This document shows, one piece after another, positions 44,105-53,685 of a DNA stretch of 64,000 bases. This DNA comes from Methylocystis sp. L43 (GTDB taxonomy: Bacteria > Pseudomonadota > Alphaproteobacteria > Rhizobiales > Beijerinckiaceae), in contig NZ_JADNRA010000027.1 in NCBI RefSeq assembly GCF_015709525.1, positions 75,126 through 139,125 on the forward strand, read 5' to 3'. Below the pieces are notes generated by a model. The model made no database searches. It was not told the DNA's origin and saw only the letters and a list, made by a program, of their open reading frames with translations. A program made the position numbers and the translations under genes. Position 1 is the first letter of the stretch. The number at the start of each line of letters is the position of its first letter.

Positions 44105-45757
44105 ATGTCTACCGATCAAAACTTCCCGTCGGAAAAAGTGGTGTCGGAACTCGTCGCGCCGCAAGTTGTGCGGCCTCTCGATCAGCGTGGCCGGGTGGAA
44201 CGTAGAGAAGTGCTGCGCGCCGGCGCCGCCGGAATCATCGGGACCATTTTCGGCGGCAAATCCGCCAATGCGACAGGGCTGTTCTCAGGCCTGATGGGAG
44301 ACGCAGCGTCGGCGGCGGAGGTGAATGCGCCGCGTCTTGCGACGCTCGGCGACTACGTCTGGCTCACCCCGACGAAGCTCGGCGGGGGCGCTCAGGTGCA
44401 GGATCTTGCGACCGGCAAGACAATGGCCTGGATCGAATATTGGAATTACGGCGACAGCTGCCCGATCGCCCATCATCTCGCGGCCTTCCCTTCGGCCGAC
44501 CCGCGCAAAGGCTTCGAGTTCGTAAACTCGACCCAAGGTGGGCAGAACGTCCTGATTTATGGCATCCCCACGCAGATCCGGGAACATGGAATGCTCGATC
44601 CTTTGTGGGGCCAGGGCAATCAGATCTATCGCGTCGGCTTCGACGGGCAGCAGATGAATTTGCTCGAGAATGTCGCCGAGACCACGGGGATCGGACTTGG
44701 CGTGCACACCGTGATCTTCCCGGATGCGTCTGGCTTCACGGTCGCGGACGGGCAAAAGGATGTGGTCGCCTTCTTCAATCGCGCCACCGGAAACCAGAAG
44801 ACGACGGTGATCGACGCCTTCCGTTTCGACTGGCGTGGAAACGAGCCGGACGGCGTGCTCGAGGACAATTGGTTCAAGGGAGGGACCGTTCGCGTTTCCC
44901 GTCTCTTAAAGGCGTCTGACACCGGGCTCTATGATTATCGCGGCGTTAAGGGAAACAAGCTCGATTGGGAGATGGTGCCCATGGGCGAGTATCTCGCCTA
45001 TTCGGGACAGCTTCCGGGCGACTCGGTGAAGACGCTCACCGGCGCCGATAATTGCGTCCACCATCCGATCCATCCGCTCTCGCTGGTGACGCTTCGCATG
45101 TTCGCCGTCGGCGTCGTCATCGACCGCACGACGATGGAGCCGGTTGCGTGCATTTCTTCCCCTGACGGCACGACGAAGGAAAGCATTCCCGTCAAAAAGA
45201 TCGCCGACGGCATCTGGGACATCAAGCTGGACAATGTCGTGTCGTCGGGACACGAATGCGGTTTTGGACCGCACGGCAAATGGTTCACCATGACGAACAA
45301 CACCCGCCAAAACAGCATGGGCGTGTTCGATTGTGCGGACCGCGATCCGCGCAACTGGAAGCGAGTCGCCCAGTTCAAGGATTCGCACTGGGTCGGATCG
45401 ACGCCGAGCCCGTTCCACATCACCTATTCGATGGACGGCTCGAAAATGTTTGTCTCCGAGCTGCATCGCAAGCCGGCGAAAAGCGCCATCGTCGTCGTCG
45501 ACACCAATACGTGGACGACAATCAAGCGCTTCGAGAATGTCGGCGTTGACCTGCAGACGATGCATGTCACCTATGACGGCAAATATGTGCTCGCGATCTT
45601 CAGCGGATTCCAGCGGCTCGAAGGAGGAACCTTCATCTTCACGCAGGATACGCTGGAGCCCGTTGGTTATATTCCGAACTTTGGCGGTCACCACGACTGC
45701 GTCATTGTCCCGCGGAACAACGAAGAACTGATCCACAGCCGCTGCACCACGGTCTGA
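44105..45757 (+). CDS. Tat-exported beta-propeller resembling the nitrous oxide reductase catalytic domain, without CuA domain
   Basis: The protein has 550 residues. A twin-arginine signal (R33-R34, EVLRAGAAGIIG) predicts folded export, as for cofactor proteins. The rest is a seven-bladed propeller. By eye it aligns with NosZ: HHLAAF and GFEFVNSTQGG match the HHVHMSF and RFLFMNDKAN blades, GVHTVIF matches IHGL, SGHECGF matches PHGCNM, FHITY matches LHTAF, MHVTY matches GHLKT, and HHDCVIV matches PHDAIAV. These give H123, H124, H201, H383, H438, H487 and H530, candidates for all seven CuZ ligands. There is no C-terminal cupredoxin and no CuA motif. The protein ends with RCTTV. The two genes after it form an ABC system. 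The NosZ relation is my inference; N2O reduction is not implied. Confidence 0.6.
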   Translation: MSTDQNFPSEKVVSELVAPQVVRPLDQRGRVERREVLRAGAAGIIGTIFGGKSANATGLFSGLMGDAASAAEVNAPRLATLGDYVWLTPTKLGGGAQVQDLATGKTMAWIEYWNYGDSCPIAHHLAAFPSADPRKGFEFVNSTQGGQNVLIYGIPTQIREHGMLDPLWGQGNQIYRVGFDGQQMNLLENVAETTGIGLGVHTVIFPDASGFTVADGQKDVVAFFNRATGNQKTTVIDAFRFDWRGNEPDGVLEDNWFKGGTVRVSRLLKASDTGLYDYRGVKGNKLDWEMVPMGEYLAYSGQLPGDSVKTLTGADNCVHHPIHPLSLVTLRMFAVGVVIDRTTMEPVACISSPDGTTKESIPVKKIADGIWDIKLDNVVSSGHECGFGPHGKWFTMTNNTRQNSMGVFDCADRDPRNWKRVAQFKDSHWVGSTPSPFHITYSMDGSKMFVSELHRKPAKSAIVVVDTNTWTTIKRFENVGVDLQTMHVTYDGKYVLAIFSGFQRLEGGTFIFTQDTLEPVGYIPNFGGHHDCVIVPRNNEELIHSRCTTV

Positions 45758-47198: not shown

Positions 47199-48595
47199 TC
47201 CTTTCCGCCAAGGGTTTGCGGAAGCATTACGGCGGCGATCCTGGCGTGGACGCGGTGATCTCTGCCGATTTGATCGTTGGCGCAGGCGAGTTCGTTTCGA
47301 TCGTCGGACGATCTGGCTCCGGTAAATCGACGCTGCTCGCCATGGTCGGCGGGCTGACGCCGCCGACGGCGGGCAACGTTCAACTCGCAGGAGACGAGAT
47401 CTGGGATCTTCCCGAGGCGCAGCTTGCCGATATCCGGCGAGAGCGGATCGGCTTCGTCTTTCAGTTCCAGAGTCTCCTTCCGAATCTTCGCGCCATCGAC
47501 AACGTCGCCTTGCCGGCGCTACTCGGTTACAACGTGACGCCAGAATGCGCCTATGCGCGCGCGCAAGGCCTTCTCGCCCGCGTCGGCCTGAGCGATCGGG
47601 TGACAACCTTCCCAGGACAGATGTCCGGCGGCGAGCAGCGTCGCGTCGTCATCGCTCGGGCCCTGATCAACGAACCGCAATTGCTTCTCGGGGACGAACC
47701 CACAAGCGACCTCGACGAGGAGACGGAAGAAGAGATCTTCGCGCTGCTCGATGATTTGCGACGAGAAGAAAATTTCGCCATGGCGCTCGTCACGCACAAC
47801 CATGCGCTGGCGCAACGCGCCGATCGCATGTTTGAGATGCGGCAAGGAATTCTTCTTCCCAGCAGCGCGCCGCGCGCCTTCGTCGCTGCGCCGATCCGCT
47901 ATGCCGAACCGACCGCGCAAAAAACGCCCGCGCCGATCGGCGCCGAGGCAGACGGCGCGCGCGATTTCGAAAAACTCGGCAAGACGCTGTGGGCGACAGC
48001 AGGACGCATCTTCGCCGCCGCAGCGCTTTTGTTCGTCCTCGCGTCGTCAGCGAATTACGGCGTGGCGCGCTACCAGCAGTATGAACTCGACGCCGGTCGG
48101 CAGCGACTCGCCGCCCTCGAAGAACTTGCGACCTCCACCCTCCAGAGCGACATCGCGTCGATTACGCAGCTCGGCGACGGCCGTTATGAGGTGACGATTT
48201 ATCTGGAGAACACAAAAGCCGAACAACCCATTTACGTCATGTCGCCGAGCGTGCAGGGTTTCGTGCAGGTTGGAGTCGGCTGGCAGGAGGCGCCGCTCAC
48301 GCCGATCGACGACGCGACCGCCGCAGTGCTGAAAGTCACAGGCCGGCAGCTCTACCGCTTCGTTTTTGAGGCCCGCCTCGCGAAATTCACCGAATTATTG
48401 CCCCACTACATGCATGTGCGCTTCAGCAACAACATGCTTGTCAGTCCCGAGAGCACGCCCACCAATGAGTTATTTCAGCGGGTCGACAATTATTATGTCT
48501 ATCTGAAACCGGACAATGTCGACGACGCGACGATCGCAAAAGATGTCCGATTTCCCGGGCCGCCTCCGCTCTGGATCTGGATGCCGCCGCACTGA
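47195..48595 (+). CDS. LolD/MacB-type ABC ATPase fused to a membrane-anchored periplasmic domain
   Basis: The protein has 466 residues. The ATPase part (1-225) has Walker A GRSGSGKST, signature MSGGEQRR and Walker B LLLGDEPTSDLDEE. After a linker a single membrane helix (about 268-286, AAALLFVLASSANYG) leads to a domain of about 180 residues with beta-rich character (YEVTIYLENTK, PIYVMSPSVQGFVQVGVGW) ending in PPPLWIWMPPH. LolD-class ATPases normally stop after the nucleotide-binding domain, so this extension is unusual and may be the periplasmic partner of the permease. ATG 47195 lies within the permease stop. Confidence 0.88.
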   Translation: MILSAKGLRKHYGGDPGVDAVISADLIVGAGEFVSIVGRSGSGKSTLLAMVGGLTPPTAGNVQLAGDEIWDLPEAQLADIRRERIGFVFQFQSLLPNLRAIDNVALPALLGYNVTPECAYARAQGLLARVGLSDRVTTFPGQMSGGEQRRVVIARALINEPQLLLGDEPTSDLDEETEEEIFALLDDLRREENFAMALVTHNHALAQRADRMFEMRQGILLPSSAPRAFVAAPIRYAEPTAQKTPAPIGAEADGARDFEKLGKTLWATAGRIFAAAALLFVLASSANYGVARYQQYELDAGRQRLAALEELATSTLQSDIASITQLGDGRYEVTIYLENTKAEQPIYVMSPSVQGFVQVGVGWQEAPLTPIDDATAAVLKVTGRQLYRFVFEARLAKFTELLPHYMHVRFSNNMLVSPESTPTNELFQRVDNYYVYLKPDNVDDATIAKDVRFPGPPPLWIWMPPH

Positions 48596-48930: not shown

Positions 48931-49791
48931 ATGCCGGCAAACTTTGACGCGCTCGCGAATGCTATCGAACAGAGCGAGAAGGACCTGCTGAGCCGATGGA
49001 TCGCGGCGCTGACGGCGGTGGGCGCCACGCGAAGCGGTCAGACGTCCGACAAGGATTTGAAGGACGCCTGTGGGCGATTTCTGAAAGAGCTGCGCCGCGC
49101 TCTTCAGAATGGCGCCAGCGAAGATATCGCCAGCGAACAGTGGCAAGATGCGCGCGACGTGCTCGAAGAGATTTCGGCGGCCCGCGCGCTGCGCGGATAC
49201 AGCCCCGTCGAGACCGCGCTATTCGTGTTCTCGCTGAAAGAGCCGCTTTTTGATCTGCTGCGGCAAACGCTGGCGCGTGAAAAGCACATGGCGGACGTGC
49301 TGGTCGCCTCGGGGGCGCTTCTCGATCGTCTCGGCTTATTTACCACCGAGGTTTATCAGAAGAGCCGCGAAGAGGTCATCAAGCGTCAACAGGACGAATT
49401 ATTGGAGCTGTCGACTCCGGTCATCCAGCTTTGGGACAAGATTCTCGCGCTGCCGCTCATTGGCACGCTCGATAGCGCACGCACGCAGATCGTGATGGAG
49501 AATCTTCTACAAACGATCGTCGACGCGGGGGCCGAAATCGCCATCATCGACATCACGGGCGTGCCGGCCGTCGATACGTTGGTCGCGCAGCATTTGATCA
49601 AGACGGTGGCGGCGGCGCGGCTCATGGGCGCAGATTGCATCATCAGCGGCATCCGTCCGCAAATCGCTCAGACGATCGTCCATCTGGGACTCGATCTTCA
49701 GGTCGTCTCCAAAGCAACGATGGCGGACGCCCTCTCGCTGGCGTTGAAAAAGACGGGTCAGAAGGTGGAACGCTTGGCGGCGCGGGGCTGA
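48931..49791 (+). CDS. rsbR: Stressosome sensor protein RsbR
   Basis: The 286-residue protein has an N-terminal all-helical RsbR sensory domain (about 1-145, globin-like in the family, no heme ligand evident) and a C-terminal STAS domain. The STAS phosphorylation sites are conserved: the Thr of IDITGVP and a second site near the AARLMGADCIISGIRP segment. RsbR and RsbS build the stressosome that captures RsbT until stress. It begins the rsb operon, with rsbS four bases downstream. Confidence 0.92.
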   Translation: MPANFDALANAIEQSEKDLLSRWIAALTAVGATRSGQTSDKDLKDACGRFLKELRRALQNGASEDIASEQWQDARDVLEEISAARALRGYSPVETALFVFSLKEPLFDLLRQTLAREKHMADVLVASGALLDRLGLFTTEVYQKSREEVIKRQQDELLELSTPVIQLWDKILALPLIGTLDSARTQIVMENLLQTIVDAGAEIAIIDITGVPAVDTLVAQHLIKTVAAARLMGADCIISGIRPQIAQTIVHLGLDLQVVSKATMADALSLALKKTGQKVERLAARG

Positions 49792-49795
49792 TGCG

Positions 49796-50185
49796 GTGGA
49801 TAAGATCCCGATCCTCAAAGTCGGCAAGTGCCTTCTCGTCACGATTCAAATCGACATGCATGACCGCCTCGCCATGGCGCTGCAGGACGATCTGACCAAC
49901 GCGATCGTCACCAGCAGGGCGAAGGGCGTGTTGATCGACGTTTCCGCGCTCGAGATCGTCGATTCCTTCATCGGCCGCATGCTTAGCAACATAGCCAGCG
50001 CGTCACGGGTGCTTGACGCCGTCACCATCGTCGTGGGCATGCGGCCGCATGTCGCGATCACCCTCGTCGAGCTGGGCGTTCAGCTGAGCGGCATTCAGAC
50101 CGCCCGCAACGTCGATAAAGGTCTGGAGACGATCAGCAGGCTGATCGAGCAGTCAGAGTCGACCGATGCTTACGGAGACGATTGA
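49796..50185 (+). CDS. rsbS: Stressosome scaffold protein RsbS
   Basis: The single STAS-domain protein has 129 residues. The phosphorylated Ser lies in IVDSFIGRML, matching Bacillus RsbS (Ser59 in VDSF). GTG 49796 starts five bases after the rsbR stop. It overlaps rsbT by 20 bases. RsbS forms the core with RsbR and is the substrate of RsbT. Confidence 0.92.
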   Translation: MDKIPILKVGKCLLVTIQIDMHDRLAMALQDDLTNAIVTSRAKGVLIDVSALEIVDSFIGRMLSNIASASRVLDAVTIVVGMRPHVAITLVELGVQLSGIQTARNVDKGLETISRLIEQSESTDAYGDD

Positions 50186-50570
50186 AACCGTTCCGATTCG
50201 AAGCTCGGAAGACATCGTTCGCGTTCGGCAGAAAGTCCGCTTTCAAGCTGGCGCAATGGGCATGAGCCTTATCGATCAAACCAAATTCATCACCGCCGCG
50301 AGCGAAATAGCGCGTAACACCTTCGAATATGGCGGAGGCGGCGAACTGGTCATGGAAACCCTTCGCGACGGCGCGCGCCGAGGGTTGCGACTGACGTTTT
50401 TGGACGAAGGTCCTGGCATCGCGGACATTGAACAGGCGATGCGCGATCACTTCACGACAGGCGGGGGGCTTGGGCTGGGTTTGGGAGGCGCAAAGCGGCT
50501 CGTCAACGAGTTCGACATCGAATCTCGACCTGGCGAGGGAACGCGCATCTCGCTCATTCGTTGGAAATGA
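50166..50570 (+). CDS. rsbT: Stressosome switch kinase RsbT
   Basis: The GHKL-type serine/threonine kinase has 134 residues. The N-box reads SEIARNTFEYGGGG and G boxes DEGPGIAD and GGLGLGLGGAKRL. RsbT phosphorylates RsbR and RsbS and on release activates a downstream partner. In Bacillus that partner is the phosphatase RsbU, which is not found here; the two following genes are the likely partners. It overlaps rsbS. Confidence 0.92.
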   Translation: MLTETIETVPIRSSEDIVRVRQKVRFQAGAMGMSLIDQTKFITAASEIARNTFEYGGGGELVMETLRDGARRGLRLTFLDEGPGIADIEQAMRDHFTTGGGLGLGLGGAKRLVNEFDIESRPGEGTRISLIRWK

Positions 50571-50571
50571 C

Positions 50572-51558
50572 ATGCTGTTGCCGGTGGATGATCCTTCGCG
50601 AGTCGCGGAAGTGCGCAGGGCGGCGACGCAGTTGGCGTCGTCACAAGATTTTTCGGAGGAGGCGATCGGCAGAATAGCGATCGTCGCCACTGAACTCGCG
50701 ACCAACATCCTCAAACACGCGAAAAAGGGCGAGTTTTCCATCGATCTCTTCGATGACGCCGACGGGCGGGGCGTCGAACTGCTGGCGCTCGATCGCGGGC
50801 CGGGGCTCGCCGACGTCGCAAAATGTCTCGGCGATGGGTATTCGACCTTCGGCAGTCGTGGCGGCGGACTGGGCGCGGCGCAGCGGCTCTCCAGCACCTT
50901 CGGCATCTACTCGAAGCCTTCGAAGGGCGCAGCGGTGCTGGCGCGTTTTCGCAGGAACGGCGCGGCGTCGAACACCCGGTTCGTGGCGGGCGCGGTCGCG
51001 GTGACATGTCCGGGGGAATCCATCTGCGGCGACGCATGGCTGGCTGCCGAGAGAGGCGGCGCGATCGACCTTCTCGTGGTGGACGGAACGGGGCATGGAC
51101 CGTTTGCGTCTGAAGCTGCGCAGCGCGCCATCTCGACGTTTTCCTCAAGCAAGGACCTGCCGGTCGCGCAGCATGTCGAGCGGATCCATCAGGCCCTTCG
51201 GCCGACCAGAGGCGCGGCGGTAGGCCTTGCGCGTTTGGCCGTCGCGAGCGGCCAGGTGGAATTCTGCGGCGTGGGCAACATCTCCGGCGCGGTCGTCAGC
51301 CCTGGTGAAGCTCGGAGCCTGGTCTCTTACAATGGCATGGCTGGCCATGGGACGCCGCAGATTCGGACCTTTCAGTATGGCCTCGCGAGAGGTAGTGTGG
51401 TCGTTCTGCACAGCGACGGCTTGTCCGCTCGCTGGGATATCGCGCAGTATCCCGGTCTTTGCGGGATGCATCCGGCGCTTATCGCAGGAGTGCTGACGCG
51501 GGATTATCGTCGGGGCCGAGACGACGCCACCATCGTGGCGTTGCGCGCCTTGGGGTGA
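50572..51558 (+). CDS. Fusion of RsbW-like ATPase and SpoIIE/RsbX-type phosphatase
   Basis: The 328-residue protein has an N-terminal GHKL domain (about 1-130, ATELATNILKHAKKG and DRGPGLADV) and a C-terminal PP2C-like domain (about 140-328, ESICGDAWLAAERGG, VVDGTGHGPFASEAA, LHSDGLSARW, GRDDATIVAL). The phosphatase half corresponds to RsbX, which resets RsbR and RsbS. Bacillus RsbX lacks the ATPase domain, so here kinase and phosphatase functions are combined. ATG 50572 is two bases past the rsbT stop. Confidence 0.9.
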   Translation: MLLPVDDPSRVAEVRRAATQLASSQDFSEEAIGRIAIVATELATNILKHAKKGEFSIDLFDDADGRGVELLALDRGPGLADVAKCLGDGYSTFGSRGGGLGAAQRLSSTFGIYSKPSKGAAVLARFRRNGAASNTRFVAGAVAVTCPGESICGDAWLAAERGGAIDLLVVDGTGHGPFASEAAQRAISTFSSSKDLPVAQHVERIHQALRPTRGAAVGLARLAVASGQVEFCGVGNISGAVVSPGEARSLVSYNGMAGHGTPQIRTFQYGLARGSVVVLHSDGLSARWDIAQYPGLCGMHPALIAGVLTRDYRRGRDDATIVALRALG

Positions 51559-51561
51559 GTC

Positions 51562-53685
51562 GTGATGCTTCGCATTTTGTCAGTGTCTTTGAAGGCCGAG
51601 CCGGACATCGTCTTTGCGCGCCAGCGCGCGCGCCAGCTTGCCGGACTGCTTGGATTCGACCGGCAGGATCAGACCCGCATCGCGACGGCGGTGTCCGAGA
51701 TCGCACGCAACGCCGTTGAATATGGCGGCGGCGGATGCGTCAAGTTTTCGCTGGCAGGTTCTACGTCCCCGCAACTGTTCCAGGCGACCATCTCGGACGA
51801 AGGCGCCGGGATCGCCAACCTTGAAGACGTCCTTGCCGGCCGCCATCGCTCCACCACGGGCATGGGCGTCGGGCTGATCGGCGCGCGTCGGCTTGTGGAT
51901 CAGTTTTCCATCCAGTCGACCAGTTCAGGCACCGTTGTGGCTCTCAAAAAGCTGCTGCCTGGAACGGTCAAGGTGTTTTCCCATTCTGATCTTGCGGAAA
52001 TTTCCGATCGCCTGCTGAGGGAAGACGCCAACGACCCAATGATCGAGCTGCGCCGGCAGAATCAGGAGCTTATTTTCAGTCTGGAGGAGGTCGAACGGCA
52101 GCGCAAGGAACTGGCTTCACTGAACGAAGAACTGCACGACACGAACCGCGGGGTGGTCGCTCTTTATTCCGATCTCGACGAAAAGGCGGAGCATCTGCGG
52201 CGCGCGGACAGCCTCAAATCTCGCTTTCTTTCCAACATGACTCACGAGTTCAGGACGCCGCTCAACTCGATATTGGCGCTGACCCACCTGCTGCTCGATC
52301 GGTGTGACGGCGAACTCATGCCTGAGCAGGAGCGACAGATTTCGTTCATCCGGAAGTCGGCGGAGAGCCTGACCGAACTCGTCAACGACCTTCTCGATCT
52401 CGCGAAAGTCGAAGCCGGCAGAATCGAGATCAGGCCCGTCGAATTTCGGATCGGCGATCTCTTCGGCGCCTTGCGCGGCATGCTGCGGCCGCTGCTGGTT
52501 GGAGACAAGGTCAATCTCGTGTTCGAGGACGCTTCGTCGCTGCCGGCGATGTTTAGCGATGAGGCCAAGATTTCACAGGTGCTGCGCAACCTGATTTCGA
52601 ATGCGCTAAAATTCACTGAGGCCGGGGAAATTCATATCAAGGCGTCGATGTCGGACGGGTGCTTCACTTTCACGGTGAAGGACGACGGCATCGGCATCGC
52701 CCCAGAGCATCATGAGCTCATTTTTCAGGAGTTCTCACAGCTCGACAGTCCCATCCAGCGCCGAGTGAGGGGCACGGGACTGGGCCTTCCCTTGTCGAAA
52801 CGGCTGTGCAAGCTTTTGGGCGGCGATATCCAAGTCGACAGCGCGGTCGGCAAGGGATCGACCTTCTCCTTTACGCTGCCAGCCGCCTACGCGGGCGCCA
52901 TGGTGGACCTTGCCGAGCCCTTGATCGAGCCGCCGCCGGAAGATGAGCGCATTCCGGTTCTTGCGATCGAAGACGACCCTGCGGACATGATGGTCTATGA
53001 GGCCACCCTGCGTCACTCTCCTTACAGGCTGATCGGCGCGCGAAACTTGAAGGAGGCGCGCCGGAAAGTTCATGAGGTCAAGCCCCGCGCGATTATTCTC
53101 GATCTCCTACTGGAAGGCGCAGACACTTGGGCGCTGCTGGCTGATCTCAAGAGCGCGCCGGAATCGCAGGGAATCCCGGTTATTGTCGTCTCGACCATTG
53201 AGGACCGCGCGAAAGCGGCGCGGCTCGGCGCTGACGGCTATGGAGTAAAGCCCATTGAACGCGCCTGGCTCCTCGCCAAGCTGCATGAATTGATCGACGA
53301 GACAGAAGCGAAGCGCGTCCTTTTGATCGACGATGACGAGGCCTCGCGCTACATCATCCGTCGATGTCTCGCGGACGAGCCCTACGTTCTCAGCGAAGCC
53401 GCGACCGGCGAAGCGGGTCTGGCGAGCGCCGCCGAACACCTCCCGGATCTGGTGTTGCTCGACCTCAAACTTCCCGGCATCAGCGGCTTCGATGTGCTCG
53501 ATCGGCTGACGGACAATCCAAAAACAGCGCAGGTTCCGATTGTCGTTGTCACGGCGACAGCTCTGAACGAGCACGACCTGGAGCGTCTCGGCGGCGCCAA
53601 GCAAGTCGTCGCAAAAAGCGGGCTTTCGAAAGAGGCGCTCGCTCCTGTAGTGGCTGAGGCGCTCGGCGCGGGAGCCCAGCCATGA
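51562..53685 (+). CDS. Hybrid histidine kinase with an RsbT-like N-terminal ATPase and two receivers
   Basis: The 707-residue protein begins with a domain like RsbT (about 1-140: SEIARNAVEYGGGG, DEGAGIAN, GMGVGLIGARRL). A coiled coil follows (about 155-225), then HisKA with H228 (MTHEFRTPLNS), HATPase (NALKFT, DDGIGIAPEHH, GTGLGLPLSK) and two receiver domains (about 470-585 and 590-700). The first receiver has LDLLLEGAD where the acceptor motif is expected; the second has canonical LLDLKLPG. It thus joins the partner-switch and phosphorelay families in one chain. GTG 51562 and ATG 51565 are both possible starts. Confidence 0.92.
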   Translation: MMLRILSVSLKAEPDIVFARQRARQLAGLLGFDRQDQTRIATAVSEIARNAVEYGGGGCVKFSLAGSTSPQLFQATISDEGAGIANLEDVLAGRHRSTTGMGVGLIGARRLVDQFSIQSTSSGTVVALKKLLPGTVKVFSHSDLAEISDRLLREDANDPMIELRRQNQELIFSLEEVERQRKELASLNEELHDTNRGVVALYSDLDEKAEHLRRADSLKSRFLSNMTHEFRTPLNSILALTHLLLDRCDGELMPEQERQISFIRKSAESLTELVNDLLDLAKVEAGRIEIRPVEFRIGDLFGALRGMLRPLLVGDKVNLVFEDASSLPAMFSDEAKISQVLRNLISNALKFTEAGEIHIKASMSDGCFTFTVKDDGIGIAPEHHELIFQEFSQLDSPIQRRVRGTGLGLPLSKRLCKLLGGDIQVDSAVGKGSTFSFTLPAAYAGAMVDLAEPLIEPPPEDERIPVLAIEDDPADMMVYEATLRHSPYRLIGARNLKEARRKVHEVKPRAIILDLLLEGADTWALLADLKSAPESQGIPVIVVSTIEDRAKAARLGADGYGVKPIERAWLLAKLHELIDETEAKRVLLIDDDEASRYIIRRCLADEPYVLSEAATGEAGLASAAEHLPDLVLLDLKLPGISGFDVLDRLTDNPKTAQVPIVVVTATALNEHDLERLGGAKQVVAKSGLSKEALAPVVAEALGAGAQP

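Follow-up and report, generated by a model that had tools for sequence, protein, structure and literature searches.

Few beta-propellers house a multicopper centre; nitrous oxide reductase (NosZ) and thiocyanate dehydrogenase (TcDH) are examples. Seven-bladed copper propellers with about seven histidines are common to both enzymes. The TcDH superfamily itself is known and its structures have been solved. TcDH is described as a copper propeller with a separate cytochrome c as its electron acceptor (PMC9456337), thirteen TcDH active-site residues are listed (legend of Fig. 4 in PMC6504805), and the TcDH operons of Thioalkalivibrio are reported to comprise genes for two permeases and two ATP-binding subunits, for which the authors propose a role in copper acquisition (section 11 of PMC5328954).

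The DNA of the methane-oxidising bacterium Methylocystis sp. L43 analysed here (the window, a stretch of 64,000 nt) carries a propeller gene whose product an earlier note, made from the sequence alone, had aligned blade by blade with the catalytic domain of NosZ and credited with seven candidate histidines of a CuZ centre. In this work we have analyzed the relatives of this protein, its active-site residues and the genes that accompany it (Table 1).

Table 1. Features of the propeller locus, in coordinates of the window
Feature	Coordinates	Strand	Basis
Gln-type TcDH-like beta-propeller, 550 aa	44105..45757	+	ORF; matches to TcDH chains; rmsd of model
N-terminal 76 residues, low-confidence, with Tat-like R33-R34 and hydrophobic stretch	44105..44332	+	sequence by eye; pLDDT
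Span of the twelve kept TcDH active-site codons	44375..45742	+	alignment; legend of Fig. 4 in PMC6504805
Kept codons K91; H123-H124; Q144; H201	44375; 44471-44476; 44534; 44705	+	legend of Fig. 4 in PMC6504805; alignment
Kept codons E289; D315; H383; H438	44969; 45047; 45251; 45416	+	legend of Fig. 4 in PMC6504805; alignment
Kept codons H530-D531; R546	45692-45697; 45740	+	legend of Fig. 4 in PMC6504805; alignment
Met290 and Met293 of WEMVPM motif, beside E289	44972..44983	+	subfamily-fixed
Gln484 (cag), at the place of TcDH His482	45554..45556	+	alignment; same change as in 6sji, 8yu5
His487 (cat), aligned with TcDH Ala485	45563..45565	+	alignment; His in 16/96 rows
FtsX/MacB-type ABC permease, 435 aa	45891..47198	+	PF02687, PF12704 above cut-offs
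LolD-like ABC ATPase (about residues 1-225) with C-terminal helix-plus-beta domain, 467 aa	47192..48595	+	PF00005 above cut-off
C-terminal domain of the ATPase, membrane-anchored	47978..48595	+	conservation in 63 rows; model

Relatives of the propeller protein

The propeller gene is an intact single ORF of 550 codons with an ATG start, and its product is 96-98% identical to the copies found under the records of M. rosea, M. silviterrae and M. suflitae. By eye, R33-R34 precede a hydrophobic stretch in a Tat-like arrangement. The AlphaFold2 model has a mean pLDDT of 83.6; values below 50 are confined to residues 1-76, nearly all of which fall under this mark, and the confident part is one propeller reaching the C-terminus. 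This agrees with the claim that a cupredoxin (CuA) domain is lacking, for which no Pfam match was obtained at E ≤ 1. The only Pfam match of the protein was DUF1513 at 19.4 bits, below the cut-off of 27 for that family.

When compared with the sequences of solved structures by phmmer, the propeller matched nine TcDH chains at E values from 1.1e-114 to 9e-130 and 41-45% identity, the next match being hydrazine synthase beta at E 0.08. A profile of 57 relatives retrieved the same nine chains, followed by hydrazine synthase beta (E 1.3e-4) and by cd1 nitrite reductases at E 0.18 and worse; no NosZ chain appeared up to E 10, and nos_propeller gave no Pfam match at E ≤ 1. A nos_propeller search across the whole genome was empty as well, but so were its controls, and it carries no weight here. 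Foldseek with the propeller model placed TcDH chains at ranks 1-20 (rmsd 1.6-1.8 Å, TM by target 0.94-0.96) and NirF after them at rmsd 9.2, NosZ being absent from the best 50 of 1697 matches. The closest relative of the protein is, by sequence and predicted structure, TcDH and not NosZ. Membership in the NosZ family was rejected on the profile, on Pfam and on the best 50 of the Foldseek matches, and the blade-by-blade alignment with NosZ in the earlier note was not borne out. Sequence and model together describe a TcDH homolog with the seven-bladed propeller fold, similar to the enzymes of Thioalkalivibrio paradoxus (5f75) and Pelomicrobium methylotrophicum (8q9x) in its fold, its single domain and its presumed export. 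The lack of a CuA domain is what would be expected, since the TcDH relatives hand electrons to a separate cytochrome c. The general idea of an uncharacterised exported copper-propeller enzyme devoid of CuA is therefore upheld by homology, although the family is a different one.

Active-site residues and the Gln-type subfamily

The active-site residues in the TcDH list were mapped onto the propeller by alignment. Twelve of the thirteen are identical to those of 5f75 and 8q9x, and the thirteenth, His482, is replaced by Gln484. The twelve positions are invariant wherever a row has a residue in an alignment of 97 rows, one of which is the fragment L116. The histidines H123-H124, H201, H383, H438, H487 and H530 were all located where the earlier note had put them, with the reported intervals of 55 (H383-H438) and 49 residues (H438-H487). 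Six of them occupy TcDH active-site positions and are invariant; H487 is aligned with Ala485, and the place of the seventh TcDH histidine is taken by Gln484. Among the 96 rows used for the tree, position 487 is occupied by A (59), H (16), C (9), S (6), D (4) or E (2), and H487 was dropped as a seventh cluster histidine common to the family. On the tree His at this position requires three changes, or two if only the starred branches are trusted, and His487 may bind metal within the host clade. Further histidines are found at positions 161, 319, 320, 323, 390, 428, 454, 529 and 544. Since His482 belongs to the published list, the metal centre could be weak or missing without it; nothing in the predicted structure speaks against a metal site.

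Position 482 is occupied by Q in 87, H in 8 and E in one of the 96 rows, Gln rows being over-represented since the contig scan used patterns from relatives of the query (best 80 of 128); the His-type loci were obtained by whole-genome searches. The tree is a quick maximum-likelihood one, midpoint-rooted and subject to a long-branch warning; rows L016, L017, L044, L071, L095-L098 and the fragment L116 were left off, and some genomes are in it twice, with identical (L004/L025, L005/L024) and nearly identical (L006/L007) pairs of rows. In this tree 86 of the Gln rows form a clade together with the single Glu row, and next to this clade branch the two solved TcDHs. The remaining Gln row, L091 (Tautonia), sits by itself at the end of a long branch, and across the midpoint root are six distant rows of His type. 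The latter (L013, L099-L103; Guyparkeria/Thiohalobacter-like) share the fold family and the twelve positions with the query at 29-32% identity and have His at 482. One of their loci, L099, contains a second short TcDH fragment like one described in PMC6504805, which suggests that L099 is Guyparkeria.

Seventeen positions including Q484 are conserved at 90% or more across the 88 Gln/Glu rows, and none of the 8 His rows has the residue concerned. M290 is found in 88/88 and M293 in 87/88 of the former and neither in the latter; Trp452 of all eight His rows is replaced by Leu or Met in 87 of the 88; and His319, four residues past D315, is His in 59/88 Gln/Glu rows and in 0/8 His rows. Because Gln484 is nearly fixed and the 17 positions separate the two kinds of rows, the sequences define the Gln form as a coherent subfamily and not a product of decay, and we infer that the active-site pocket was remodelled rather than lost. 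The 16 subfamily-fixed positions other than 484, together with the cassette described below, set the propeller apart from 5f75 and 8q9x. According to structure titles, the same His-to-Gln change has been made in TcDH mutants 6sji (H482Q) and 8yu5/8yu6 (H447Q). These have the same residue at the same place as the natural propellers, but they are man-made single changes in His-type enzymes, whereas the natural Gln-type proteins have other fixed changes.

Judged by record titles, which are rough for MAGs, the carriers include Methylocystis, Methylocapsa, USCalpha, Reyranella, methanotrophs of the Gammaproteobacteria, Obscuribacterales/Melainabacteria, Planctomycetota, Verrucomicrobiota, Myxococcota and Nitrospirota. 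The row with Glu at the His482 position (L051, Methylococcaceae UBA2778) also has His at 487, and no adjoining cassette was found there. One in-frame stop interrupts the propeller frame of L044 (Methylotetracoccus oryzae), due to a sequencing error or a pseudogene. Two plasmid records, both of Methylocella tundrae, contain a propeller relative; in an annotated record of a Methylocella tundrae plasmid the propeller and the domain described below are both labelled hypothetical. Matches were obtained to 39 stretches of viral contigs, none of them a relative, and to no phage.

The linked ABC cassette and neighbouring genes

The genes identified beside the propeller encode a NagA-like amidohydrolase, an ABC pair and an RsbRD/STAS protein. 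In the ABC pair the ATPase-fusion ORF overlaps the permease ORF by 7 nt. Matches to PF02687, PF12704 and PF00005 identify an FtsX-type permease with a LolD/MacB-like ATPase, i.e. an ABC system of FtsX/MacB type, although the LolD equivalog cut-off was not reached by the ATPase. No His, Met or Cys is kept in more than 60% of 64 permease rows. In the domain fused to the ATPase, Y406, H408, R430, P459, M464, P465 and the C-terminal H467 are identical in 63/63 rows (three being the window itself) and the same residues are invariant in all 47 rows of A3. The domain is modelled with a pLDDT of 91.6 as one long helix plus beta strands, and its fold matches were weak and mixed (best E 1e-4 at TM 0.33). 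It matched no Pfam family above cut-off and nothing NosD-like in Pfam at E ≤ 0.5, and a single match at 0.85 was obtained up to E 1 against solved sequences. The sequence conservation suggests the invariant His, Met and C-terminal His as a candidate copper site.

The permease is the next gene in 77 of the 86 Gln/Glu-type loci with at least 700 nt downstream, and where the flank is long enough the ATPase follows in 62/68 and the domain in 55/61, some loci in these counts being duplicates. Six of the nine loci counted as permease misses (L041, L042, L044, L047, L051 and L091) are also devoid of the rest of the cassette. L045 has no permease and a flank sufficient for the permease only; with the other six it makes seven cassette-less loci, in which the propeller can stand alone. 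L070 has the ATPase and the domain with no permease detected, and in L078 the cassette lies upstream of the propeller. The ATPase and the domain are separate genes in the Reyranella/Methylocella type.

Among 199 genomes of the family of the host, the propeller query matched 14: 12 of Gln-type, one of His-type (G033) and one at 18 bits (G030), which is of no account. The domain profile matched the same 12 genomes and no other, in 3 of 43 genera (Fisher 1.7e-19, ignoring kinship); since the compared genomes are related, the co-occurrence counts overstate independence. The propeller is present in 3 of 10 genomes of the genus of the host. In a class set of 385 genomes the propeller profile matched three, all of Gln type, and the domain profile picked out these same three. 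Nine other genomes gave no match to the domain. Three of them carry orphan Gln/Glu-type genes and belong to the cassette-less loci, and six have His-type genes (five of the gammaproteobacterial set, and G033), these being the six genomes of the loci L013 and L099-L103. Adjacency and co-occurrence thus tie the ABC system genetically to a relative of copper propellers. In one family genome, G172, a copy with 80% identity (C22:3320-3930; protein identical to that of USCalpha L024) has the domain in two pieces split by an in-frame TAA, and the cassette in this assembly may therefore be broken.

PmoA/AMO matches were obtained in 7 of the 12 cassette genomes as compared with 20 of the 199 family genomes, the AMO control genomes giving no match, and in all five H487-type genomes of the family set; the host genome has two. 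A strict tie to pMMO-type methane oxidation was rejected on the count of 7/12.

On the left side, between 39593 and 43953 of the window, NagZ-, MurQ-, GlmS-like SIS- and NagA-like genes (by eye, the NagA-like one by Pfam) have the look of peptidoglycan amino-sugar recycling, and in near Methylocystis relatives the genes for SIS and NagA are found at the same place. On the right side (48931-53685), the RsbRD/STAS protein (PF14361, PF01740) is accompanied, by eye, by a further STAS-like protein, by proteins of ATP-binding/PP2C-like type and by a hybrid histidine kinase; in the M. rosea locus L015 no such STAS protein was observed.

Other neighbours were observed in other branches. A thioredoxin-fold (AhpC-TSA-like) protein is encoded near the propeller in 16 planctomycete, verrucomicrobial or myxobacterial loci (L050, L049, L038, L068, L060, L052 and ten more) besides the query locus L063 (9159-9866). 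In those read the motif is CPC or CDC and the C-terminus contains cysteine, and AhpC-TSA was above cut-off in the four scanned (L063, L050, L068, L052). In the His-type locus L099 the neighbouring gene is redoxin-like (PF08534, 23.9 bits against a cut-off of 26.6) and shows no detectable similarity, among the matches listed, to the thioredoxin-fold neighbours of Gln-type loci. The Reyranella/Methylocella branch has a conserved membrane protein whose C-terminal part resembles a J-domain (PF00226, 24.8 bits against a cut-off of 27.8), encoded on the same or the opposite strand to the propeller at L135:3710-4432 (the Methylocella tundrae plasmid) and in 29 other loci, one with the same sequence. 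Searches with both kinds of neighbours gave no match in the Methylocystis loci. Such neighbours would suit a protein needing help in folding or cofactor assembly.

Proposed role and alternatives

In our main reading, to which we give a probability of a little under 0.6 on the sequence and model data, the protein would be a periplasmic member of the TcDH superfamily, exported by Tat and acting as a copper oxidoreductase with a remodelled centre, metallated by its own ABC system in a NosDFY-like role. After export by Tat to the periplasm, copper would sit in the central channel, where one copper of the remodelled centre would be lost or re-ligated, perhaps by Met290/Met293, His319 or, in the host clade, His487. 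The FtsX-type ABC system and the His/Met partner domain, moved at the cost of ATP, would load copper or another cluster component, serving the propeller as NosDFY and NosL serve NosZ. The mature enzyme would then oxidise a small sulfur- or nitrogen-containing molecule at a centre without the His482 ligand, and electrons would go to a separate soluble cytochrome c, as in TcDH (PMC9456337). Here the metal number, the role of the ABC system and the redox function are what we infer, the ABC role being the weakest step. The plan is like that of NosZ with NosDFY and NosL, i.e. an exported copper propeller with a dedicated ABC system and a copper-binding partner, as outlined in PMC7660919. The two systems differ in that they have no detectable sequence relation and that the locus described here has no CuA, a permease of FtsX type and a fused helix-plus-beta domain. 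The NosD beta-helix and the NosY permease type are also unlike the FtsX-type cassette.

A working thiocyanate dehydrogenase, in which Gln484 or the neighbouring H487 takes over from His482 and thiocyanate is converted to cyanate and sulfur, would account for the twelve kept active-site residues, and ABC genes are reported in Thioalkalivibrio TcDH operons as well (PMC5328954). We regard it as unlikely in view of the 17 subfamily-fixed differences from the His-type rows, some of them beside the active site, and of the surroundings: copCD, fccAB and cytochrome c genes in the Thioalkalivibrio loci (PMC5328954) as against NagA-like, ABC and RsbRD/STAS genes here. A copper-binding protein without catalytic function, kept for storage, delivery or sensing and served by the ABC system, would agree with the loss of one TcDH histidine, with the dedicated transporter and with the copper-dependent methanotrophs among the carriers, including all five H487-type family genomes with PmoA/AMO. 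Many carriers are not methanotrophs, however, and only 7 of the 12 cassette genomes have PmoA/AMO; moreover, the conservation of the non-histidine residues K91, Q144, E289, D315, D531 and R546 is no less strict than that of the six histidines. Since these positions are also unvarying, catalysis is favoured; storage or sensing, which the earlier note had entertained, appears less likely than that from the sequence comparison, and such a non-catalytic role is in our view very unlikely.

The best known MacB/Lol-type systems transport lipoproteins or drugs, or serve as mechanical relays. With a permease and an ATPase of the FtsX/MacB and LolD type, the cassette could be linked to the propeller for a purpose other than copper, acting on a product (a sulfur species, lipid or peptide) or relaying a signal. 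This is possible but rather doubtful, because the invariant His, Met and C-terminal His of the domain look metal-binding in the sequence. A NosZ-type CuZ enzyme deprived of CuA shares with the protein little beyond a seven-bladed copper propeller with about seven histidines and, with TcDH matches below E 1e-114 set against no profile match to NosZ up to E 10, none in Pfam at E ≤ 1 and none among the best 50 Foldseek matches, is extremely improbable.

Our searches of the open-licence literature returned no description of the Gln-type subfamily, its residue signature or its cassette. Extending the main reading, we tentatively propose, as an idea with appreciably more against it than for it, that the Gln-type propellers may constitute a widespread cuproenzyme family separate from TcDH, with its own reaction and with a centre re-ligated by Gln484 and new Met/His residues, and that the FtsX-type ABC copper loader with its His/Met metallochaperone domain may be an independent counterpart of NosDFY/NosL. 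The His-to-Gln replacement introduced into two TcDHs appears to have been fixed by nature in bacteria filed under several phyla, where it is accompanied by other changes near the site and usually by an ABC cassette dedicated to it. Should the main reading be true, what a TcDH scaffold does without the His482 ligand, and whether a metal centre can be loaded by an FtsX-type ABC system, would become testable questions.
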